A stretch of 64,000 nt of DNA, from positions 3,534,001 through 3,598,000 of the forward strand of contig NZ_CP031467.1 of NCBI RefSeq assembly GCF_003368325.1, given 5' to 3'. The translations under genes and the position numbers were made by a program. This DNA comes from Paraburkholderia caffeinilytica. Lineage in GTDB: Bacteria; Pseudomonadota; Gammaproteobacteria; Burkholderiales; Burkholderiaceae. Under the pieces are notes generated by a model that saw only the letters and a list, made by a program, of their open reading frames with translations, was not told where the DNA came from and searched no databases. Below, in pieces: positions 44,854 through 54,804 of the stretch. The number at the start of each line of letters is the position of its first letter. The first letter of the stretch is position 1.

Positions 44854-45102
44854 ATGGCCACACTTTCAGCGACGCATATCTGGGGCGGACTTCGGCATCC
44901 TGTGCGAAGCCTGCAGAAGCAATGGTCAAAACACGCGCACGTCTCGTCTGAGCAATCCTCAGACGAGACGGCTGCCGCGGCCCATCACTCCCCATCGCCC
45001 GAACAACTCGAACGCATTGCGGCCTACGCGCGCTGCGGCTATTTCCATATGGAATACACCGCCGGCATGTTTGTCGTGCCCCTCGAGATCCCACGCGACT
45101 AA
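44854..45102 (+). CDS. Small hypothetical protein upstream of the sulfur operon
   Basis: An 82-aa ORF with a strong GGAGG ribosome site. It starts MATLSATHIWGGLRHPVRSL and ends AGMFVVPLEIPRD. No signal peptide or known domain. The coding region contains a perfect 12-bp hairpin (44941-44969), unusual for a coding gene. It could be a small conserved protein, a leader peptide with an attenuator-like structure, or both. It is the last reading frame before the rhodanese operon, 239 bp upstream. Confidence 0.6.
   Translation: MATLSATHIWGGLRHPVRSLQKQWSKHAHVSSEQSSDETAAAAHHSPSPEQLERIAAYARCGYFHMEYTAGMFVVPLEIPRD
44941..44969. repeat. Perfect 12-bp hairpin inside a small ORF
   Basis: GTCTCGTCTGAG and CTCAGACGAGAC enclose a 5-base loop within the 82-codon ORF. 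No T-run follows on either strand. Confidence 0.85.
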
Positions 45103-45341
45103 TCCGCATGCCGGCGGTGGCGCGGCAAATCCGCGACGGGCGGGCGGTGCAGGGCTCCTTCAAGCCGGAGCCAACGGACCAAGCCGGAGCATCCGAACCG
45201 ATGCTTCTTTAGAAATGACAATTAATTGGTTCGGCTTCGGCCGGCTCTCTTTCATAGTGTCTCCTGATGGCTATAGGCGGTTGCAATCGCAGATGGCTTT
45301 GACCAGCGCGTACTGATTCGCGCGATATCGAAGGAGACGTC
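45103..45341 (+). promoter_or_regulatory. Likely promoter region of the encapsulin sulfur operon
   Basis: A 239-bp gap without a gene. An AT-rich patch (ttagaaatgacaattaatt, near 45211-45229) stands out in GC-rich flanks and is the best candidate for the operon promoter. A GGAG site lies just before the rhodanese ATG at 45342. Confidence 0.45.
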
Positions 45342-45809
45342 ATGACGCTTGAACTCGCAGAACGACCCACCCATGCGCTGCTTGAAGCCGCCCGCGCGAG
45401 CGCCGCGCAAGCCGGCTTGCCCTATGCCGGCGGCCTGCCGCCGCAGGATGCGTGGGCGCTCGTCCAGGCAGGCGACGCCGTGCTGGTGGACGTGCGCACC
45501 GCCGAAGAACGCAAATTCGTCGGACTCGTGCCGGACAGCCTGCATGTCGCGTGGGCGACGGGCACGAGCCTGACGCGCAATCCGCGTTTCGTGCGCGAAC
45601 TGGAAGCGAAGGCCGGCAAGGATGCCGTCGTGCTGCTGCTGTGCCGCAGCGGCAACCGTTCGGCGCTGGCCGCCGAGGCCGCGGCGAAAGCCGGCTTCAC
45701 GCAGGTATTCAACGTTCTGGAAGGTTTTGAAGGGGAGCTGGACGGCGCGCAACGGCGCGGCGCCAGCAACGGCTGGCGCTTTCATGGGCTGCCATGGATT
45801 CAGGACTGA
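45342..45809 (+). CDS. Rhodanese-domain sulfurtransferase
   Basis: A 155-aa single rhodanese domain. The active-site loop is Cys101 in CRSGNRS, and the motif LVDVRTAEERKFVGLVPDSLHV is typical. It should carry a persulfide and pass it between a sulfur donor such as thiosulfate and an acceptor, in the cytosol. It opens an operon with serine O-acetyltransferase, XRE, encapsulin shell and cysteine desulfurase, the recurrent set found beside Family 2A encapsulins. Here it probably takes sulfur released by the desulfurase or supplies it. The ATG is supported by a GGAG site. Confidence 0.92.
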   Translation: MTLELAERPTHALLEAARASAAQAGLPYAGGLPPQDAWALVQAGDAVLVDVRTAEERKFVGLVPDSLHVAWATGTSLTRNPRFVRELEAKAGKDAVVLLLCRSGNRSALAAEAAAKAGFTQVFNVLEGFEGELDGAQRRGASNGWRFHGLPWIQD

Positions 45810-45851
45810 CAGCCTGATCGTTCACGCTGCACTTTACGGGGAGTAATCGCT

Positions 45852-46829
45852 GTGGCTGTGTTTGACGTCGATGAAATTGTTCACGCGCTTCAGGCAGTCC
45901 GCCAGCAATGGCGCGAAGTGCAGAAGCGCTCGCTCGAGCCGGGTGGGCGCGAATTGCCGGGGCGCGAAGCGCTCGCGGAGATCATCGAGACGCTCAAGGG
46001 CGTGCTTTTTCCAATGCGGCTCGGACCGCCCGATCTGCGTCAGGAAAGCGAAAACTTCTATGTCGGCCATGCGCTCGACGCCGCGCTGCACGCCTTGCTG
46101 AGCCAGGCGCGTCTGGAGCTTCACTATCGCAGCCGTCATCAGCCGCCGCCCGCCGCGACGATCGAGGCGCAGGCGGGTATCGCGGTGCGCGCTTTCGCGG
46201 CGCGCTTGCCGGCGATTCGCAGCTTGCTTGATAGCGACGTACTAGCCGCGTTTCACGGTGACCCGGCGGCGGGCAGCGTGGATGAAGTCCTGCTGTGCTA
46301 TCCCGGCGTGCTGGCGATGATCCACCATCGGCTCGCCCATGAGCTCTATGGGTTGGGGCTGCCGCTGCTGGCGCGCATCATCGCCGAACTCGCGCATGCG
46401 CAGACCGGTATTGACATCCATCCTGGCGCGCGGATCGGCGCGGGTTTCTTCATCGATCATGGGACGGGAGTGGTGATCGGCGAAACGGCCATCATCGGCG
46501 AACGCGTGCGGGTCTATCAGGCCGTTACGCTGGGTGCGAAGCGTTTTCCGCGCGACGCGCAGGGGCATCTGGAAAAGGGCCATGCACGGCATCCGATTGT
46601 CGAGGACGACGTCGTGATCTACGCGGGCGCCACCATTCTTGGGCGCGTCACGCTCGGGCAGGGCGCGGTGATCGGCGGCAATGTGTGGGTCACGCAGGAT
46701 GTCGCGCCAGGTTCGCACGTAACGCAGGCCGTGTCGCGCAACGAAGGCACCAGCGCCGCCGCGGTTCGCGAGCTCACGCCACGCGATCGTGCGGACGCGG
46801 AGCCGGCCACGGCCGGAGCGGGCCGATGA
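45852..46829 (+). CDS. Serine O-acetyltransferase (EpsC type)
   Basis: A 325-aa CysE-family enzyme that starts at GTG 45852 (GGGGAG upstream). A helical N-terminal domain (to about 175) precedes the left-handed beta-helix with hexapeptide repeats (GIDIHPGARIGAGFFIDHGTGVVIGETAIIGERV). It makes O-acetylserine, the precursor that takes sulfide to become cysteine. The EpsC-type long form is the one that accompanies Family 2A encapsulins. It overlaps the XRE gene by 4 bp (ATGA). Together with the desulfurase it would build and break cysteine, the sulfur buffer of the operon. Confidence 0.93.
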   Translation: MAVFDVDEIVHALQAVRQQWREVQKRSLEPGGRELPGREALAEIIETLKGVLFPMRLGPPDLRQESENFYVGHALDAALHALLSQARLELHYRSRHQPPPAATIEAQAGIAVRAFAARLPAIRSLLDSDVLAAFHGDPAAGSVDEVLLCYPGVLAMIHHRLAHELYGLGLPLLARIIAELAHAQTGIDIHPGARIGAGFFIDHGTGVVIGETAIIGERVRVYQAVTLGAKRFPRDAQGHLEKGHARHPIVEDDVVIYAGATILGRVTLGQGAVIGGNVWVTQDVAPGSHVTQAVSRNEGTSAAAVRELTPRDRADAEPATAGAGR

Positions 46830-47101
46830 GCGTGCTCGTGAGGGACTTCGGCGCCGCGGTGCGGCGCTTTCGCGAGGCGTCCGGCTGGTCGCAGGAGCAA
46901 TTGGCCGAATACGCCGGACTCAACCGCTCGTATGTCGGCGAGATCGAGCGCGGTTCCGCGATAGCGTCGATTGTCACGCTCGACAAGCTGGCCCGTGCTT
47001 TCAACGTGCCGGTCGAACGCTTGCTCGGCCATTCGTCCGACGGCGTGAGCGTTGCCGCACGCCAGCACGCCGTACTCATCGACCCTGCGTCCGCCCGTTA
47101 G
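46826..47101 (+). CDS. XRE-family transcriptional regulator
   Basis: A 91-aa HTH_3 protein: one helix-turn-helix (about 10-65: GAAVRRFREASGWSQEQLAEYAGLNRSYVGEIERGSAIASIVTLDKLARAFNV) and a short tail. It starts inside the stop of the serine acetyltransferase gene, so it is translated with it. It probably regulates the sulfur operon, either from the upstream promoter or from the gap (47102-47221) before the shell gene. The effector is not evident; with no extra domain, control may be by concentration alone. Confidence 0.88.
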   Translation: MSVLVRDFGAAVRRFREASGWSQEQLAEYAGLNRSYVGEIERGSAIASIVTLDKLARAFNVPVERLLGHSSDGVSVAARQHAVLIDPASAR

Positions 47102-47221
47102 ACCTGCGCTTTGCCGTCCTCATTGCCGTCTATAGCATGTTGAACGGCCAGGGGTGTCTTCCGATAATCGTTTTCGTTCATAAGCTTTTCTGTTTTTCTT
47201 CTATCAATCCTGGAGCTTCAG

Positions 47222-48154
47222 ATGACAGCAACAGTCGGCGGCCTGACGGCGCTCGGCGATACCGCAGCACGGCAACTCGCCAATGCCACCAAAACCGTTC
47301 CGCAACTCGCCACGATCACGCCCCGCTGGCTCACCCATCTGCTGCAATGGCTGCCGGTCGAGGCGGGCATCTATCGTCTGAACCAGGTGAAGAATCCTGA
47401 AGCCGTGGTGGCGGCCTGCACCGCGCGCGAAGACGAAAGCATTCTGCCGCGCACTTTCGTGCCGTATGAAGAGCAACCGCGCGAGTACTTCCTGAATGCG
47501 GTCAGCACGGTGCTCGACGTGCACACGCGAATCTCGGACCTGTACAGCAGCCCGCACGATCAGATCAAGGAACAACTGCGGCTCACGATCGAGACGATCA
47601 AGGAGTTGCAGGAAAGCCAGCTGATCAACAACCCGGACTACGGCCTGCTCGCGAATGTGGCCGAAGAGCAGCGCGTGTTTCCGCTGACCGGCGCGCCGAC
47701 GCCCGACGATCTCGACGAATTGCTGACCAAGGTGTGGAAAGAGCCGGCGTTCTTCCTGACGCATCCGCTCGCCATCGCCGCCTTCGGTCGTGAATGCACG
47801 CGCCGTGGCGTGCCGCCGCCGACCGTCAGCCTGTTTGGCTCGCAGTTCCTGACGTGGCGCGGCATTCCGTTGATCCCGTCGGACAAGGTGCCGGTTGCCG
47901 ACGGCAAGACCAAGATTCTGCTGCTGCGCGTGGGCGACAAGCGCCAGGGCGTGGTCGGCCTGTTCCAGCCGGGCGTGGCCGGCGAACAGGGTCCGGGTCT
48001 GTCGGTCCGCTTCATGGGCATCAACAATCATGCGATCGCGTCGTATCTGATCTCGCTCTATTGCTCGCTCGCGGTGCATTCGCCGGACGCGCTGGCGGTT
48101 CTCGATGACGTGGAGATCGGCAAGTACCATGACTACCCAGATACCTACAAGTAA
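47222..48154 (+). CDS. Family 2A encapsulin shell protein (SrpI type)
   Basis: A 310-aa HK97-fold shell protein of the Family 2A type (SrpI, as in Synechococcus elongatus). Recognisable segments are TPRWLTHLLQWLPVEAGIYRLNQV in the N-terminal arm, LPRTFVPYEEQPREYFLNAV, RVFPLTGAPTPDDLDELL, and the C-terminal GVVGLFQPGVAGEQGPGLSVRF with a long helix and KYHDYPDTYK. Copies assemble into a hollow capsid (known T=1, about 24 nm for relatives) that packs cysteine desulfurase. A GGAG site lies before the ATG. The cargo gene overlaps its end by 26 bp. No cyclic-nucleotide-binding insertion is present, which separates it from Family 2B. Confidence 0.93.
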   Translation: MTATVGGLTALGDTAARQLANATKTVPQLATITPRWLTHLLQWLPVEAGIYRLNQVKNPEAVVAACTAREDESILPRTFVPYEEQPREYFLNAVSTVLDVHTRISDLYSSPHDQIKEQLRLTIETIKELQESQLINNPDYGLLANVAEEQRVFPLTGAPTPDDLDELLTKVWKEPAFFLTHPLAIAAFGRECTRRGVPPPTVSLFGSQFLTWRGIPLIPSDKVPVADGKTKILLLRVGDKRQGVVGLFQPGVAGEQGPGLSVRFMGINNHAIASYLISLYCSLAVHSPDALAVLDDVEIGKYHDYPDTYK

Positions 48155-50210
48155 GCCCATGGATAGCGTCCTGCCGCACGATGTGCCGACCGGTCCGCCC
48201 GCGGGTTTGCCTGATCCGGCGACGTTAGCGTCGCTGGCCAATGCGTTCTTCTCGGCGCTGCCGGGCAACGCGCCGCAGCCAGGCGGTGCGCCCGACGTGG
48301 CCGCCACGCTGCCGTTCACGGCGCCTGTGACCAGCGAGATCGGCAATCCGGCTCCGGCCGGTTCGCCGCTCGCGGGTCCTGGCGGCGCGGGCACTGGCGT
48401 GCCTGGTGCAGCGTTGCCGCAGGGGCATGTGCCGGGGGGTAACCTGCTGCCGTCAGCACCCACGCATGTCCTGTCGCTGGGTAATCGCGCGCCCGCGCTG
48501 GCGCCTCATGCGGCTGCGCAGAATGGCCTGCCCGATAGCGCGGTGACCGTTGCGCCGGCACTCGATCCGCGTTTTGGCGGGGCGGCGCTTGGCGTGCCTG
48601 AGGGGCACGGCGCGCAGCGTCCGTCCGCGGGCGGCGTGTCGCCTACGTCGGCGGGCTCGGCTGGGTCTGTGTTGCCTTATTATTTTCTGGGCGAAACGGC
48701 ACAGGCCCGGACATCGACGGTTGCGTCGCCGGATATCGTCGTGCCGGGCTGGAACGAAGTCAGCGCGCAATCGCTCGGATTCCCTGGCGTCGATGAGCCG
48801 CTTACCGAACAGCGCTTCCCGTACGACAGGCCGGCCGCATCGCAAGCGGTGCCGAGTGCCGGACCGGCAGAACATGCTGGCGGCTCGCATTATTTTCTGA
48901 ATCTGAACGACGCGTCGCGCTATCCGGGGCAAACTCCCGGGCAAACGACTGGCGCCAGGGACGGCGTGCCGCATGCGGGGCCGTCAGCCCACCCGCCATT
49001 CGATGTGAATGCGATTCGCCGCGACTTTCCGATTCTGCAGGAGCGCGTCAACGGCCGTCAGCTGGTGTGGTTCGACAATGCCGCGACCACGCACAAGCCG
49101 CAGGCGGTGATCGACCGGCTCGCGTATTTCTACGCGCATGAAAACTCGAACATCCATCGGGCGGCTCATGCACTCGCCGGCCGCGCCACCGATGCGTACG
49201 AAGCCGCGCGCAGCAAGGTGCAGCGTTTCATCGGCGCGGCGTCGCCGGAGGAAATCATCTTCGTGCGCGGCACCACGGAGGCGATCAACCTGATCGCGAA
49301 GACGTGGGGCGTGAAGCATGTCGGCGAGGGCGACGAGATCATCGTCTCGCACCTGGAGCATCATGCCAACATCGTGCCGTGGCAGCAGCTTGCCGCGCAA
49401 ACCGGTGCAAAGCTGCGCGTGATTCCGGTTGACGACAATGGCCAGGTCCTGCTCGACGAATATCGTCGTCTGCTCAATGACCGGACGAAGATCGTCTCGG
49501 TCACGCAGGTGTCGAACGCGCTGGGCACCGTGGTGCCGGTCAAGGAGATCGTCGAGCTTGCACATCGGGCAGGCGCGAAGGCGCTGGTCGACGGCGCGCA
49601 ATCGGTGTCGCACATGCGGGTGGACGTGCAGGCGCTCGACGCCGACTTCTTCGTGTTCTCGGGCCACAAGGTGTTCGGTCCGACGGGCATCGGCGTGGTC
49701 TACGGCAAGCGCGCGATTCTGGAAGATATGCCGCCCTGGCAGGGTGGCGGCAACATGATCGCGGACGTCACCTTCGAGCGCACCGTGTTCCAGCCTCCGC
49801 CGAATCGCTTCGAAGCCGGCACGGGCAATATCGCCGATGCAGTGGGCCTCGGTGCCGCGATCGACTACGTTCAGCGCGTGGGCATCGAGAATATCGCGCG
49901 CTATGAGCACGACTTGCTGGCCTATGCGACGAGCGTGCTGCAGCCGGTGCCGGGTGTGCGCCTGATCGGCACGGCCCGCGACAAAGCCAGCGTGTTGTCT
50001 TTCGTGCTGAAGGGCTACGAGACCGAGGAAGTGGGGCAGGCGTTGAACGAGGAGGGCATCGCCGTGCGTTCGGGGCATCATTGTGCGCAGCCGATCTTGC
50101 GCCGCTTCGGCGTCGAAGCCACGGTGAGGCCGTCGCTCGCGTTCTACAACACCTGCGATGAAGTCGATGCGTTGGTGTCGGTCGTGCGGCGCCTGTCTTC
50201 GCGACGCTAA
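48129..50210 (+). CDS. Encapsulin cargo cysteine desulfurase (SufS type)
   Basis: From the ATG at 48129 (an ATG at 48159 is an alternative) the protein is 693 aa. Residues 1 to about 285 are Pro/Gly/Ala-rich and predicted disordered, the cargo-loading region of Family 2A desulfurases, starting with PAGLPDPATLASLANAFFSALPG and holding two similar aromatic segments, LPYYFLGE and SHYFLNLN. The rest is a type II (SufS) PLP enzyme, with PLP Lys514 in FSGHK and catalytic Cys652 in SGHHCAQP. It removes sulfur from cysteine as a persulfide inside the capsid. Overlap with the shell gene couples their amounts. The operon ends 4 bp later at a strong terminator. Confidence 0.93.
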   Translation: MTTQIPTSKPMDSVLPHDVPTGPPAGLPDPATLASLANAFFSALPGNAPQPGGAPDVAATLPFTAPVTSEIGNPAPAGSPLAGPGGAGTGVPGAALPQGHVPGGNLLPSAPTHVLSLGNRAPALAPHAAAQNGLPDSAVTVAPALDPRFGGAALGVPEGHGAQRPSAGGVSPTSAGSAGSVLPYYFLGETAQARTSTVASPDIVVPGWNEVSAQSLGFPGVDEPLTEQRFPYDRPAASQAVPSAGPAEHAGGSHYFLNLNDASRYPGQTPGQTTGARDGVPHAGPSAHPPFDVNAIRRDFPILQERVNGRQLVWFDNAATTHKPQAVIDRLAYFYAHENSNIHRAAHALAGRATDAYEAARSKVQRFIGAASPEEIIFVRGTTEAINLIAKTWGVKHVGEGDEIIVSHLEHHANIVPWQQLAAQTGAKLRVIPVDDNGQVLLDEYRRLLNDRTKIVSVTQVSNALGTVVPVKEIVELAHRAGAKALVDGAQSVSHMRVDVQALDADFFVFSGHKVFGPTGIGVVYGKRAILEDMPPWQGGGNMIADVTFERTVFQPPPNRFEAGTGNIADAVGLGAAIDYVQRVGIENIARYEHDLLAYATSVLQPVPGVRLIGTARDKASVLSFVLKGYETEEVGQALNEEGIAVRSGHHCAQPILRRFGVEATVRPSLAFYNTCDEVDALVSVVRRLSSRR

Positions 50211-50213
50211 CGC

Positions 50214-50247
50214 AAAGCGGCGGCCGATCATGGCCGCCGCTTTTTTT
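50214..50247. terminator. Strong intrinsic terminator of the encapsulin operon
   Basis: AAAGCGGCGGCC / GGCCGCCGCTTT, a 12-bp stem with a 6-base loop, is followed by a T-run to 50247, starting 4 bp after the desulfurase stop. A-residues on the other side give partial terminator character for the minus-strand operon that ends at 50280. Confidence 0.9.
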
Positions 50248-50279
50248 CTTCGCCTGCATTCAGGCAATGTCAGGCCATA

Positions 50280-50558
50280 TCAGACAATACCCGCCAGATA
50301 GTCCCACGGATAGATGCCCTGCGCATGTCCGTCGCTGAACACGATCTGCACGCCGTAGCCCATCGGCTGCAAGTCGACAATCGCAACGTTTGACTCCACT
50401 CGCGCCTTGTGACCCGAAAGCATCAAGCGACGGCATGTCGAGCAAGGGCACCGTTTCCTCAGCGTGGCGTTGTCGATCCACTGCGTTTGCCCATCGTTCC
50501 ACGTCAAGGACAGTCGCCGTGTCGCGGCATGAATCGTCACGTGGTCGGGCGCGTTCAT
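50280..50558 (-). CDS. DUF971-domain protein
   Basis: A 92-aa protein consisting of one DUF971 domain (LTWNDGQTQWIDNATLRKRCPCSTCR ... GYGVQIVFSDGHAQGIYPWDYLAGI). The domain also forms the N-terminus of gamma-butyrobetaine hydroxylases and occurs near Fe-S assembly genes. The CPCSTC cysteines suit metal or Fe-S binding. It is the last gene of the minus-strand operon, overlapping the HEAT gene by 1 nt (TGATG). It may help assemble or insert a cofactor for the AprA-like enzyme or ferredoxin. Confidence 0.88.
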   Translation of the reverse strand: MNAPDHVTIHAATRRLSLTWNDGQTQWIDNATLRKRCPCSTCRRLMLSGHKARVESNVAIVDLQPMGYGVQIVFSDGHAQGIYPWDYLAGIV

Positions 50559-51571
50559 CAGTTCGCCTTGTCAATCTGTGCCAACGCGATACGTGCGGCT
50601 TTGCGCACTTCCGGATCGGGATCGGTCGCGGCTACCTGCAAGGCCGGCAACGAAGCGGCATCGCCCAATTCTCCCAGCGACAAAGCCGCCTCCTTGCGCA
50701 AATTGCTGATCGCATGCGTGAGCAGCGCGGCGACCGCCGTGCTCGCGGTAGAGATTGCGCTTGCATTTGCATCGCCGAGTTTGCCTAACGCTCGGACCGC
50801 CTGCAAACGGACTTGCCAGTAGTCGTCGTCGAGCGCCGCGATCAGCGCATCCCGTGCGCCCGGCGCGCGCAGTTTGCCGAGCGTGGCTGCCGCTTCTTCA
50901 CGGACCTGCCACGCGGCATCGCCCAATGCGCTCAGCAACGCGGCGATGATGTCGTCCGTCGCCGCTGCCCCGATACCCAATGCACCGATTGCCGCGCGCC
51001 GCACGGCGGCGCTCGGATCCTGCGCGGCAGCGGCGGTGAGGGGGCCAAGCGCGTGCTCGTTCTTCAACCAGCCGAGCACGCTCACGGCTTCGAGCCGCAC
51101 TATGTATTCGTTCGCGGCGAGGGCGGCCAGCGCGGGTTCCAACGCGCCTGCATAGCGCAGTTCGCGCAGACCGCGAAGCGCAGCCTGACGCACGAACGGA
51201 TCGCCATGCGCGGTCCACGGCGCGAGCAGCGGCCCGGATTCCGGATCCTTCAAATTGGACAGACTCTGCGCGGCCGCCTCGCGCACATCCTCTGCACGAT
51301 CCGCCAGTGCTTCGCACAGCGCCGCTACCGCGTCGGCACGCTCCCACGCACCGAGCACCTCGGCGGCCTGCGCCCGAACCTCCGATGAGACGTCGCTGCG
51401 CAAGGCGGTGACAATCGGTCCGAGCACGGCTTCGTCTTCGAGGTCGGCGAGCGCAAGGAGGGCGATGCGGCGCACGGCGGCGTCCGCGGACGCGAGGCGC
51501 GGCAGGAGGGCGGCGGCTTCCGGATCGAGGGAATCGGGGTCGAACGTCAGCGGAAGCGAAATATCGGTCAT
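50558..51571 (-). CDS. HEAT-repeat protein
   Basis: From the ATG at 51571 the protein is 337 aa, built of about ten HEAT/PBS-lyase-type repeats, each about 30 residues (for example DAAWQVREEAAATLGKLRAPGARDALIAALDDDYWQVRLQAVRALGKLGD). It has no leader and is acidic. HEAT solenoids act as scaffolds; in phycobilin lyases and some redox operons they hold enzymes or help insert cofactors. It is encoded between the ferredoxin (92 bp upstream) and DUF971, so a scaffold or maturation role for the flavoprotein/ferredoxin unit is the natural guess. The longer frame to 52072 is a shadow. Confidence 0.88.
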   Translation of the reverse strand: MTDISLPLTFDPDSLDPEAAALLPRLASADAAVRRIALLALADLEDEAVLGPIVTALRSDVSSEVRAQAAEVLGAWERADAVAALCEALADRAEDVREAAAQSLSNLKDPESGPLLAPWTAHGDPFVRQAALRGLRELRYAGALEPALAALAANEYIVRLEAVSVLGWLKNEHALGPLTAAAAQDPSAAVRRAAIGALGIGAAATDDIIAALLSALGDAAWQVREEAAATLGKLRAPGARDALIAALDDDYWQVRLQAVRALGKLGDANASAISTASTAVAALLTHAISNLRKEAALSLGELGDAASLPALQVAATDPDPEVRKAARIALAQIDKAN

Positions 51572-51663
51572 GAGTTGAATGGTGTCCGGAGTGAAACAGG
51601 TGTGTTCGATACGCTGCTCGAGCATGCCAGGGAAACGGCGCCGTCGGTCCGGAGGGCTCGCTA

Positions 51664-51909
51664 TTAGCGCAGCAGATAAGGAATATCGACCCTGATTGCA
51701 TCGGTCGGGCAATCCTTCTCGCACGGCATGCAGTACCAGCATTCGTCGAACTTCATGTAGGCGCGGCCTTTGGTCAGGTCGATCGCTAGCAGGTCGAGCG
51801 GGCATACGTCCACGCAGACCGTGCAGCCCTTGTCGGCGATGCATTTGTCTTCGTCGATCGTGACCGGTGCCGCGCTGCGCTGGAAAATGGTGTGCGGTGT
51901 CGTAGACAT
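51664..51909 (-). CDS. Two-cluster [4Fe-4S] ferredoxin-like subunit (AprB-like core)
   Basis: An 81-aa protein with two cysteine sets: C23-x5-C29-x2-C32-x3-C36-P (atypical first spacing) and C57-x2-C60-x2-C63-x3-C67-P. These bind two [4Fe-4S] clusters. The pattern resembles the beta subunit of adenylylsulfate reductase, but it lacks the long C-terminal tail of dissimilatory AprB (about 150 aa). It starts 9 bp after the flavoprotein stop, so the two very probably form a complex in which this subunit carries electrons to or from FAD. Confidence 0.9.
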   Translation of the reverse strand: MSTTPHTIFQRSAAPVTIDEDKCIADKGCTVCVDVCPLDLLAIDLTKGRAYMKFDECWYCMPCEKDCPTDAIRVDIPYLLR

Positions 51910-51918
51910 GGTGGCTCC

Positions 51919-53652
51919 TCAAGCGTCGGCCAGCGCGGGCTCGCCGATGCGCAGGTTCTGGTAGGCGTGACTCTCGTGGTTGTCGAGCGGCACCACATAC
52001 GGCTCGACGGCGCGTTTTTCGCTGACCATGCGGCCCGCCGCGTCTTTCTTCAGATGCGTGTGGCAGAACCATTCGGCGTCGTTGCGCTGCGGATAATCGA
52101 CGCGATGGTGGTACAAGCCCCAGCGGCTTTCCGTGCGATACAGCGACGCGTGCGCCGCCATCTCGGCGCAGTCGCGAATCGCCCGCACCTCCGCGGCGCG
52201 CATCAGCTCGTGCGGATTGTCAGCCTTGATCTGGTCGATGTCGGCGGCGATTTCCGCGAAACGTTGCAGGCCGATTTCCATCTTGCGTGTGACCTTCGGC
52301 GGCTGAAGATAGTCGTTCACCATGCGACGCAGCTTGTATTCGACCTGCGCCGGTGCAAGCCCGGTCTCGCGTTCGAGCGGCGCGTAGATCCGCGTGCGCT
52401 CGGCTTCGATCTGCTCGCTATCGAGTGCCGCATGCTCACGCCCTTCGACGTATTGCGCCGCGTTCCGCCCCGCGAACCAGCCGTAGGTGAACGCGCCGAG
52501 CATGTAGTTGTGCGGTACCGCGGCCATGTCGCCGGCAGCGTAAAGACCGGCAACAGTGGTTTCCGCGCGCTCGTTTACGTAGACGCCGGAGGCGCTGTGG
52601 CCGCTGCAAAAACCGATCTCGGAGATGTGCATCTCGATCATCTGCTGGCGATAATCAGTGCCGCGTCCCGCATGAAAACGTCCCCGGCTGGGGCGCTCGT
52701 TCGTGTGCAGAATCTGCTCGATGGTTTGAATGGTTTCCTCGGCGAGATGGTCGAGCTTCAGAAATACGGGGCCATTGCCGCTTTGGAGTTCCTGATAGAA
52801 CTCCCACATCATCTGGCCGCTCCAGTAATCGCATTCGATGAAACGTTCGCCCTTGCCGTTCGCGGTGAAGCCGCCGAGCGGGCCCGTCACGTAGGCGCAT
52901 GCGGGGCCGTTGTAGTCCTTGATCAGCGGGTTGATCTGGAAGCACTCGAGGTTCGCGAGCGCAGCGCCCGCGCGATAGGCCATCGCGTAGCCGTCGCCGG
53001 CGTTGGTGGGGTTCTCGTAGGTGCCCATCAGATAGCCCGAGGACGGCAAGCCGAGGCGGCCCGCGGCCCCGCAGCAGAGAATCACCGCTTTCGCGCGCAC
53101 CACATAAAAATCCGCCGTACGGCAGTCGAAGCCCAGCACGCCGCAGGCGCGCCCTTGCGCATCGGTCAGAACCCGCGTGACGACGATGCGATTGGTGATC
53201 GCGATGCGCGCGCGTTTGAGCTGCCGGTAGAGCACTTTCTTGATGTCGTGGCCTTCCGGCATCGGCAGAACATAGGAGCCCATGTGATGCACTTTCTTGA
53301 CCGCATAGTCGCCCGTGCCGTCCTTTTCGAACTTCACGCCCCAGCGGTCGAGCTCTTCGATGGTCTTGAAGCTGTGCCGGGCGTAGGCATAGACGGCGGC
53401 CTGATCGACGATGCCGTCGTTGGCGATGGTGATTTCCTTCGTGTACTGCTCGGGCGTCGCGTGACCGGGAATGATGGCGTTATTCAGCCCGTCCATGCCC
53501 ATGGAAATCGCGCCGCTGCGTTTGACGTTGGCCTTTTCCAGCAACAGAATCTTCAGGTTCGGGTCCTGTTCCTTTGCTTTGACGGCAGCCATCGGACCGG
53601 CCGTGCCGCCACCCACGACGACCAGGTCGTACTCGATCACGTGTGTATTCAT
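51919..53652 (-). CDS. AprA/FrdA-like FAD-dependent oxidoreductase
   Basis: A 577-aa flavoprotein of the fumarate reductase/AprA superfamily. It has the FAD-binding start YDLVVVGGGTAGPMAAVKA and the segment LLEKANVKRSGAISMGMDGLNN, which has no His for covalent FAD, as in AprA rather than SdhA. It also shows GLYAAGDMAAVPHNYMLGAFTYG, where a His sits near the position of the AprA active-site His. These suggest an adenylylsulfate- or sulfite-type redox enzyme, but the substrate is not proven. The gene overlaps gntR by 4 bp and precedes a ferredoxin by 9 bp. No sulfate adenylyltransferase is nearby, so a different substrate is quite possible. Confidence 0.88.
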   Translation of the reverse strand: MNTHVIEYDLVVVGGGTAGPMAAVKAKEQDPNLKILLLEKANVKRSGAISMGMDGLNNAIIPGHATPEQYTKEITIANDGIVDQAAVYAYARHSFKTIEELDRWGVKFEKDGTGDYAVKKVHHMGSYVLPMPEGHDIKKVLYRQLKRARIAITNRIVVTRVLTDAQGRACGVLGFDCRTADFYVVRAKAVILCCGAAGRLGLPSSGYLMGTYENPTNAGDGYAMAYRAGAALANLECFQINPLIKDYNGPACAYVTGPLGGFTANGKGERFIECDYWSGQMMWEFYQELQSGNGPVFLKLDHLAEETIQTIEQILHTNERPSRGRFHAGRGTDYRQQMIEMHISEIGFCSGHSASGVYVNERAETTVAGLYAAGDMAAVPHNYMLGAFTYGWFAGRNAAQYVEGREHAALDSEQIEAERTRIYAPLERETGLAPAQVEYKLRRMVNDYLQPPKVTRKMEIGLQRFAEIAADIDQIKADNPHELMRAAEVRAIRDCAEMAAHASLYRTESRWGLYHHRVDYPQRNDAEWFCHTHLKKDAAGRMVSEKRAVEPYVVPLDNHESHAYQNLRIGEPALADA

Positions 53653-54428
53653 TTCGTCTTCCTTGTGGTGTTCTTCTCTTTCTGCCGGTCGATGCGAAAG
53701 CGGTACTGCAACGCGTCGCCGCGGAAATAGAGGTATTCGTAGTCGATCGGTGTGCCGTCCGCGTCATGGGTAAGACGTTCGATGCGAAGCACCGGGCTGC
53801 CTTCTTCAACGTTCAGGGCGTCGACGATTTCATCGTCGGCGAGAATCGCGTCGATGGAGACGTCGGCGTGGCCGAGCGGCACGGTGCAATCGTTCTCGAG
53901 AATGAGGAAGATGTCGCGCGTGACGAGGTCCGCGCTCGCAAGGCGCTTCCCTAATGCCTCCGGGACCCACGTGATTTCGAGCGAGACGGGCTCGCGATTG
54001 AGCATCCGCACGCGCTGGATTTCGGCGACTTTCGCGCCCTCTGGCAGCTTGAGATGGCTCGCGATGTGCGCAGTGGCGGGAATGAAACGGATATGTTTGA
54101 GCTGGTTGACGATTTCATAGCCCATCGACGACATCGCTTCGGCGAAGCCTTGCAGCGCGCTGACGTTCTGGAAGGCCTTCGGCCTGGAGACGAAGGTGCC
54201 CTTGCCGTGAAGTTTGAAGACGAGCCCTTCCTTTTGCAGATCGCCGAGCGCTTGCCGCACGGTAATGCGGCTGACGTCGAACATCGCGCAGAGATCGCTT
54301 TCAGACGGCATCTGGGAATGGGCCGCATAGGTGCCGTCGAGAATGCGCGAACGCAACGCCGTCTTGATCTGCTCGTAGAGCGGAGGCGCGGAAAGAGGCA
54401 GCACGTTGGCAGAGTCGGGTTTCAGCAT
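53649..54428 (-). CDS. GntR-family regulator (HutC/UTRA type)
   Basis: From the ATG at 54428 the protein is 259 aa: a GntR winged HTH (about 15-80: LYEQIKTALRSRILDGTYAAHSQMPSESDLCAMFDVSRITVRQAL) and a UTRA effector domain (about 95-245). It is the first gene of the minus-strand operon; its stop overlaps the AprA-like start by 4 bp. A perfect inverted repeat at 54446-54461, 18 bp upstream of the start, is a likely operator, so it should repress this operon and perhaps the divergent ABC cluster. The upstream frame to 54776 is not used. Confidence 0.9.
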   Translation of the reverse strand: MLKPDSANVLPLSAPPLYEQIKTALRSRILDGTYAAHSQMPSESDLCAMFDVSRITVRQALGDLQKEGLVFKLHGKGTFVSRPKAFQNVSALQGFAEAMSSMGYEIVNQLKHIRFIPATAHIASHLKLPEGAKVAEIQRVRMLNREPVSLEITWVPEALGKRLASADLVTRDIFLILENDCTVPLGHADVSIDAILADDEIVDALNVEEGSPVLRIERLTHDADGTPIDYEYLYFRGDALQYRFRIDRQKEKNTTRKTK

Positions 54429-54804
54429 GATCTTGGGGTGTCTGTACTTGTTATGACAAGTTGCGTCACAGTCTAGTGATGGAGCGCGGACGGGCGAACG
54501 AAGATTTTGTGCTTTGCATTTCTGCTCAACAGCTTTCGGTGTTCGTGTTAGCCGCAACGTCCTGGCGCATGGCGCTATCCCGGTGCCTGGGCCGACGATG
54601 CCTTTATCCGCGATACGGGAACCGGCACATTCCTCGACCCACAAGAACGGCATGTGCTGAACTACAAAAGCGAGAAATTCTCGGCACCTGCAGGCGACAC
54701 GCCTGCCATTCGTCGTGCGCGACGCTTTGCATATCAGAACAAATTGGTTTTCCACACATATGGCGCGGGCAGACAATCATCGTTTTGGATGACGGTGCGC
54801 AACC
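54429..54804. promoter_or_regulatory. Divergent control region between the GntR operon and ABC cluster
   Basis: A 376-bp gap without a convincing gene. It contains the GntR-type operator at 54446-54461 and must hold both promoters. An AT-richer stretch at about 54720-54790 precedes the ABC gene start. Confidence 0.5.
54446..54461. promoter_or_regulatory. GntR-type operator
   Basis: ACTTGT-TATG-ACAAGT is a perfect 6-bp dyad with a 4-base spacer. The TTGT...ACAA core matches the HutC-subfamily style. It lies just upstream of gntR. Confidence 0.7.

Follow-up and report, generated by a model that had tools for sequence, protein, structure and literature searches.

Family 2A encapsulins with cysteine desulfurase cargo are a large and described group: in the part of the survey by Andreas and Giessen available to us (PMC8346489), 1281 such operons were counted, Burkholderia was among the carriers, and the accessory genes with the strongest enrichment were those for serine O-acetyltransferases and rhodaneses. 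For Synechococcus elongatus, the available text of Nichols et al. (PMC8049743) reports that the shell protein SrpI and the desulfurase rise under sulfur starvation, and that the enclosed cargo shows about sevenfold higher activity; a title cited there connects CysR with genes under sulfur regulation on a cyanobacterial plasmid. Here, we analysed an operon in a 64,000-nucleotide stretch of Paraburkholderia caffeinilytica (contig NZ_CP031467.1, positions 3,534,001 to 3,598,000; referred to as the window, with all coordinates given in its numbering). Judged by its sequence, it is very probably a Family 2A desulfurase encapsulin operon with a 91-residue XRE protein as dedicated local regulator binding both promoters. 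Its genes are those usual for this known type of operon, and the compartment had been correctly recognised in the original prediction; what is new is the lineage-specific XRE together with the promoter element paired with it. The main text of PMC8346489 makes no mention of XRE, HTH or helix-turn-helix, and that of PMC8049743 none of "regulator" or helix-turn-helix. The available part of the one paper found to mention both encapsulins and XRE treats them separately, and among the literature titles listed on encapsulins with transcriptional regulators or Paraburkholderia, and on the major membrane protein with XRE, none concerned this XRE regulator. The features of the locus are as follows.

45226 to 45258, plus strand: putative head promoter of the rhodanese-acetyltransferase-XRE genes, based on CATAGT conservation; -10-like CATAGT at 45253-45258, -35 unclear
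45264 to 45283, plus strand: candidate XRE operator 1, CTGATGGCTATAGGCGGTTG, upstream of the rhodanese gene and 3' of the -10-like hexamer
45342 to 45809, plus strand: rhodanese, single domain, Cys101 (PF00581, 50.5 bits)
45852 to 46829, plus strand: serine O-acetyltransferase, EpsC type, GTG start (NF041874, 160.3 bits, cut-off 150)
46826 to 47101, plus strand: XRE/Cro-type regulator, 91 residues, helix-turn-helix (HTH) domain alone detected (HTH_3, 61.4 bits)
47123 to 47142, plus strand: candidate XRE operator 2, TTGCCGTCTATAGCATGTTG, upstream of the shell gene; right end enters the -35 hexamer
47140 to 47168, plus strand: predicted shell promoter TTGAAC-17-GATAAT, from a sigma-70-like scan
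47222 to 48154, plus strand: Family 2A encapsulin shell protein, 310 residues (NF041162, 522.3 bits; PF19307, 336.7 bits; solved relatives 8T6R and 6X8M)
48129 to 50210, plus strand: SufS-type cysteine desulfurase cargo, 693 residues (NF041166, 961.1 bits, cut-off 800)
50214 to 50243, plus strand: terminator-like hairpin at the operon end, 13 pairs plus T tract

The XRE regulator and its paired promoter element

The XRE protein passes the HTH_3 model (PF01381; cut-off 23 bits), and no domain other than the HTH was found in it by Pfam. In a small correction to the original prediction, its gene starts at 46826 and shares four bases (ATGA) with the end of the acetyltransferase gene. Over 114 loci, the XRE proteins comprise 70-111 residues, with the pattern WSQE-LAE-LNR-Y-GE-ERG nearly invariant. 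Domain, genus-presence, PADLOC and script searches were performed with the XRE sequence minus its first residue. An antitoxin or defence role was considered and rejected, the PADLOC matches (best 51 bits) resembling generic HTH similarity.

Within the genus of the window, 24 shell genes were found across 21 of 58 genomes. XRE lies directly 5' of the shell gene in 23 of these 24 operons, the exception being a second copy in genome G004, which also gave no match for acetyltransferase or rhodanese; another XRE, in G016, comes after an acetyltransferase gene close to a contig end. All 21 shell-bearing genomes carry XRE, versus one of the 37 without shell (38% identity). The same arrangement, with XRE directly upstream of the shell, was present in 78 of the 80 named loci kept, these being the best 80 of at least 586 relatives (Paraburkholderia, Burkholderia, Caballeronia, Trinickia, Cupriavidus, Duganella, Variovorax, Acidovorax, Comamonas, Herbaspirillum and others); loci L113 and L126 are without XRE. 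Among 31 further operons sampled over the order, XRE was present in 13 and absent from 18. One locus from a Burkholderiales metagenome-assembled genome (L079) has the order rhodanese-XRE-shell-desulfurase, with no acetyltransferase match.

Two kinds of unusual loci were also seen. L032 and L113 represent a second shell-desulfurase type (shell 87-90% identical), found as second copies in the Paraburkholderia group; rhodanese, acetyltransferase, XRE and element were not found there, and the same genomes carry a full operon (L036, L068). Genome G046 holds three XRE-bearing encapsulin operons (L014, L030, L031), two of them about 22 kb apart, and one of the three (L031/L049) gave no rhodanese match.

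The promoter element has TGMYGKCTATAG as its core. Its shell-side copy abuts the sigma-70-like shell promoter, and a second copy lies upstream of the rhodanese gene. In XRE-bearing loci, TGMYGKCTATAG followed by CATGTTGA, or close variants, is found in most cases 80-150 bases ahead of the shell start; TTGA opens the -35 hexamer, and for 112 of the 114 loci the best -10 follows at a spacing of 17 or 18 bases, with a mean of 4.38 of 6 -10 matches versus 2.50 at shifted positions. GACACT, a weak -10 hexamer, stands there in 21 loci. In the window, the predicted shell promoter is the sole sigma-70-like site in 45100-50400, where shuffled sequences average 0.8; the shuffles in the element-matrix and palindrome tests preserve base composition only. 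At the head of the operon, the putative CATAGT promoter was not called by the consensus scan; CATAGT precedes CTATAG by 11-13 bases in 62 of the 78 XRE-bearing loci with CTATAG upstream of rhodanese.

For scoring, a matrix was trained on Burkholderia-group loci and each test locus compared with 200 shuffles. L173, whose contig ends before any shell, the short versions L001-L031, including both G087 loci, and two order-level places, in G249 and G293, were omitted beforehand. With the shell-side matrix, all 39 XRE-bearing test loci reached p <= 0.01 (38 of 39 with a score of at least 10) and none of the 24 loci without XRE did; three of the 39 (L119, L127, L172) are in or near training genera, L172 being the same place as training locus L071, and in L172 the best-scoring 20-mer lies off the promoter position. 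Over 139 loci, shell-side element and XRE were jointly present or absent with no misses at a score of 9 and one at 10, the threshold of 9 having been picked after the most divergent shell-side element (L161) was seen at 9.6; some of the 139 are one place under two records (e.g. L065/L047, L071/L172), and the rows are not independent. Mapped on the shell tree (120 distinct rows), XRE and element each change 8 times, with no discordance among 138 rows. The two copies also resemble each other: searched upstream of the shell, the matrix from the rhodanese side beats all 40 shuffles in 108 of 114 XRE-bearing loci (best site on the plus strand in 108) and in none of 25 without XRE.

In genome-wide searches, the 14-mer CTATAGCMTGTTGA gave 16 matches in 98 genomes, one each in 16, all at a distance of 107-111 bases from where the shell model matches in an XRE-bearing operon; the exact 14-mer is absent from 5 of the 21 XRE-bearing genus genomes and from all 77 other genomes, and its reversed control gave 3 matches. 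The 12-mer core has two matches in the genome of the window, both at the promoters of this operon (reversed control, 11). Its genome-wide uniqueness was dropped as a general claim, with matches in 71 of 98 genomes; among the matches listed, two cores about 1.8-2.0 kb apart occur in 17 of the 21 XRE-bearing genus genomes and in no other genome of the genus. An earlier pattern, CCGYCTATAGCM, matched four times in the genome of the window (reversed control, 8), twice at this operon, once in an ABC-permease-like open reading frame (assigned by reading, no family search) and once between listed reading frames. A perfect 20-base palindrome, TTGATGGC-N4-GCCATCAA, was considered as common operator and abandoned in that general form: upstream of rhodanese, a match with up to 4 mismatches is present in 29 of 112 XRE-bearing loci (none of 112 after shuffling), and upstream of the shell, one with up to 5 mismatches in 19 of 114 (3 after shuffling).

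Several results weigh against the reading preferred here. The branches of the shell tree hold 8 independent pairs, of which just 4 are well supported; these are concordant in 4 of 4, which is not significant (p 0.125). Upstream of rhodanese, the shell-side matrix is weaker, succeeding in 51 of 112 XRE-bearing loci (0 of 12 without XRE), and the rhodanese-side element was found in 17 of 38 XRE-bearing test loci at a score of 10 and in 23 of 38 at a score of 5 (without XRE, 0 of 12 and 2 of 12). Stripped of the CTATAG core, the matrices succeed in 12 of 114 and 5 of 112 loci; the shared signal is therefore mostly core and left half. CGATAG or CCATAG replaces CTATAG in 9 of the 39 XRE-bearing test loci, and chance copies of the 12-mer core occur in many genomes without the operon. 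L126 (Duganella sp. 1411), without XRE or shell-side element, retains a palindrome-like site on the rhodanese side, TTGATGTCCATCGCCATCAA. At the shell site, the sequence counts favour a palindrome only slightly, leaving dimer binding hypothetical, and for the S. elongatus knockouts the available text of PMC8049743 reports no effect on growth.

Part of this evidence bears on an alternative: with the encapsulin correctly identified, the element would be bound by another factor or be conserved promoter sequence and nothing more, and XRE would have its target elsewhere or no activity at all. In favour of it, the element runs into the -35 region, most of the signal shared by its two copies comes from the core, and binding by XRE is predicted only. 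Against this stands the joint presence or absence of element and XRE in 139 loci. Both are missing from L126 and present in the six other Duganella-titled loci; both are missing from the second copies L113 and L032; and L154 (shell 72% identical) has the two together, whereas L153, L156 and L163, whose shells are about as distant, have neither. In the 98 genomes, moreover, the 14-mer stands only upstream of shells with XRE. We therefore consider another factor, or no factor, unlikely, and retain XRE as the probable ligand of the element. That XRE is a dedicated regulator had originally been guessed from adjacency; the joint distribution with the promoter element now speaks for the assignment, and binding keeps the status of a prediction.

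Shell, cargo and operon layout

The five open reading frames of the original prediction (rhodanese, acetyltransferase, XRE, shell, desulfurase) were recovered in this order, all on the plus strand and at the same positions. The rhodanese has a single cysteine, residue 101, within CRSGNRS, and the acetyltransferase scores above the cut-off of the EpsC model and below that of cysE (168.8 of 210.65 bits), both as originally predicted. A hidden Markov model search with Family 2A shell and cargo profiles, proposed at the time as a check, exceeded both cut-offs. The scan for terminator-like hairpins found 5 sites versus an average of 3.6 in shuffles. Riboswitch control was rejected, the one Rfam match (23.1, gathering score 40) lying on the opposite strand over the terminator hairpin.

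The shell protein exceeds the cut-off of the Family 2A model NF041162 (380 bits) by 142 bits, far beyond chance, and passes the Family 2B model narrowly (408.7 versus a cut-off of 400); the inserted cyclic-nucleotide-binding domain that marks 2B was not found by Pfam in the 310 residues, which gave PF19307 alone. Among solved structures, the strongest match is to 8T6R (554.6 bits, query residues 9-310), which we take to be the Acinetobacter baumannii shell of a 2024 paper in Sci. Adv.; the second is SrpI (6X8M, query residues 9-305). An HK97 fold can safely be assigned because the shell sequence matches these solved shells; an AlphaFold model had a mean pLDDT (predicted local distance difference test) of 31.5 and was not used. 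In the alignment, F262 and Y273 of SrpI, placed near cargo density in the available text of PMC8049743, correspond to F264 and Y275. The part of PMC12407261 available to us cites the 8T6R paper for sulfur storage. The designation as an SrpI-type shell is thus borne out by a curated model and by sequence matches to solved structures.

For the desulfurase, the Family 2A cargo model NF041166 was matched over residues 2-689, 161 bits above its cut-off. SGHK starts at residue 511 and GHHCAQP contains Cys652; the lysine of the former and Cys652 are presumably the catalytic residues, as in SufS. The N-terminus of about 284 residues is rich in Ala, Pro and Gly and holds LASLANAFFS from residue 33 and LPYYFLGE from residue 182, counterparts of both loading motifs published for the S. 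elongatus cargo, LARLANEFFS and AASPYYFLDG (Nichols et al., available text of PMC8049743). Taken as an ordinary SufS, with a long N-terminus that is no loading domain, the protein would still account for its catalytic part, which is plain SufS (567.4 bits); the near full-length match to the cargo model and the two motif counterparts make this very improbable, and the earlier assignment as SufS-type cargo holds. The 26-base overlap of shell and desulfurase genes depends on the choice among three in-frame ATGs, the others standing 50 bases inside the shell reading frame and 4 bases past the shell stop. Over 114 XRE-bearing loci, an ATG is found most often at -26 (83), followed by -50 (75), and the predicted start at 48129 is the likeliest of the three; the overlap stands or falls with it.

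That the shell is a domesticated or active prophage capsid has a negligible probability: the HK97 fold is common to encapsulins and phage capsids, and one weak PHROG match of unknown function (21.6 bits) was seen, against which stand the 522 bits to the encapsulin model, the adjacent cargo gene, the lack of any phage-capsid family match and five scanned downstream neighbours that are not phage genes (the family search covered the downstream side only).

A further cluster adjoins the operon on the minus strand (50280-53652 and 53649-54776), comprising a fumarate-reductase-like flavoprotein (PRK08275, 1140.8 bits), a ferredoxin, a HEAT-repeat protein, a GBBH-N/DUF971-like protein and a GntR regulator. 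Such a cluster lies convergently downstream of the encapsulin operon in L046, L047, L052, L053 and L097, downstream in the same direction in L050, and divergently upstream in L034, L036 and L125. Where found, it occurs as one strong copy per genome; of the first 35 genus genomes, 20 contain it; nine of these bear a shell, and in 4 of the 9 the cluster adjoins the operon. Within the L050 cluster lies an NMT1-type transporter, for which an organosulfur substrate would be a guess.

Proposed control and comparison with known systems

By analogy with published relatives, the shell would self-assemble, the disordered desulfurase N-terminus would dock inside it, and cysteine sulfur would be released or stored within; the acetyltransferase would feed cysteine synthesis, and the rhodanese accept or pass on sulfur. 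Two transcription units are envisaged, rhodanese-acetyltransferase-XRE and, under its own promoter, shell-desulfurase, with XRE probably binding a TGMYGKCTATAG-type element at both promoters. Relative to starts derived from the predicted promoters, one operator position is compatible with activation and one with repression. The rhodanese-side site would be centred about 8 bases past the expected start, a repressing position that would block transcription. The centre of the shell-side site would fall about 42-43 bases ahead of the expected start, with its edge touching the -35 hexamer, where activation or occlusion may result; given weak -10 hexamers such as GACACT, we lean towards activation at the shell promoter. 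Carried to its end, the scheme would be a lambda-CI-like private switch acquired in one Burkholderiales lineage: the one-domain XRE would hold down its own rhodanese-acetyltransferase operon and, from a site adjoining the -35, switch on the promoter of shell and cargo. We put this forward as a tentative and rather doubtful proposal.

If true, the building of the compartment would be decided locally, outside the general sulfur regulon. Control of desulfurase-encapsulin building is unsettled in the literature covered, and a dedicated regulator with a defined site pair would offer a direct handle on it, whose signal would reveal the physiological cue. In a laboratory soil strain, a promoter for the shell would also become available at a predicted place, and operons of this lineage could be recognised by their sequence. 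Two operons of this type (L059, L067) are present in the laboratory strain P. xenovorans LB400.

Set beside the described systems, the locus carries the accessories of the surveyed Family 2A desulfurase operons, rhodanese and serine O-acetyltransferase (PMC8346489, available part), and the original placement among sulfur-handling encapsulins agrees with their published enrichment. With SrpI/CyD of S. elongatus PCC 7942 (6X8M/6X8T) it shares shell family, cargo type, a disordered two-motif loading domain and cargo-facing residues; among solved structures, its shell matches 8T6R best. For the regulator, lambda CI at OR2/PRM and the controller proteins of restriction-modification systems are single-domain XRE/Cro regulators. 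Like these, the XRE described here is a small HTH_3 protein with candidate sites at its own operon, one of them touching the -35; unlike these, whose dimers and binding have only hypothetical counterparts here, it sits in the operon of a compartment.

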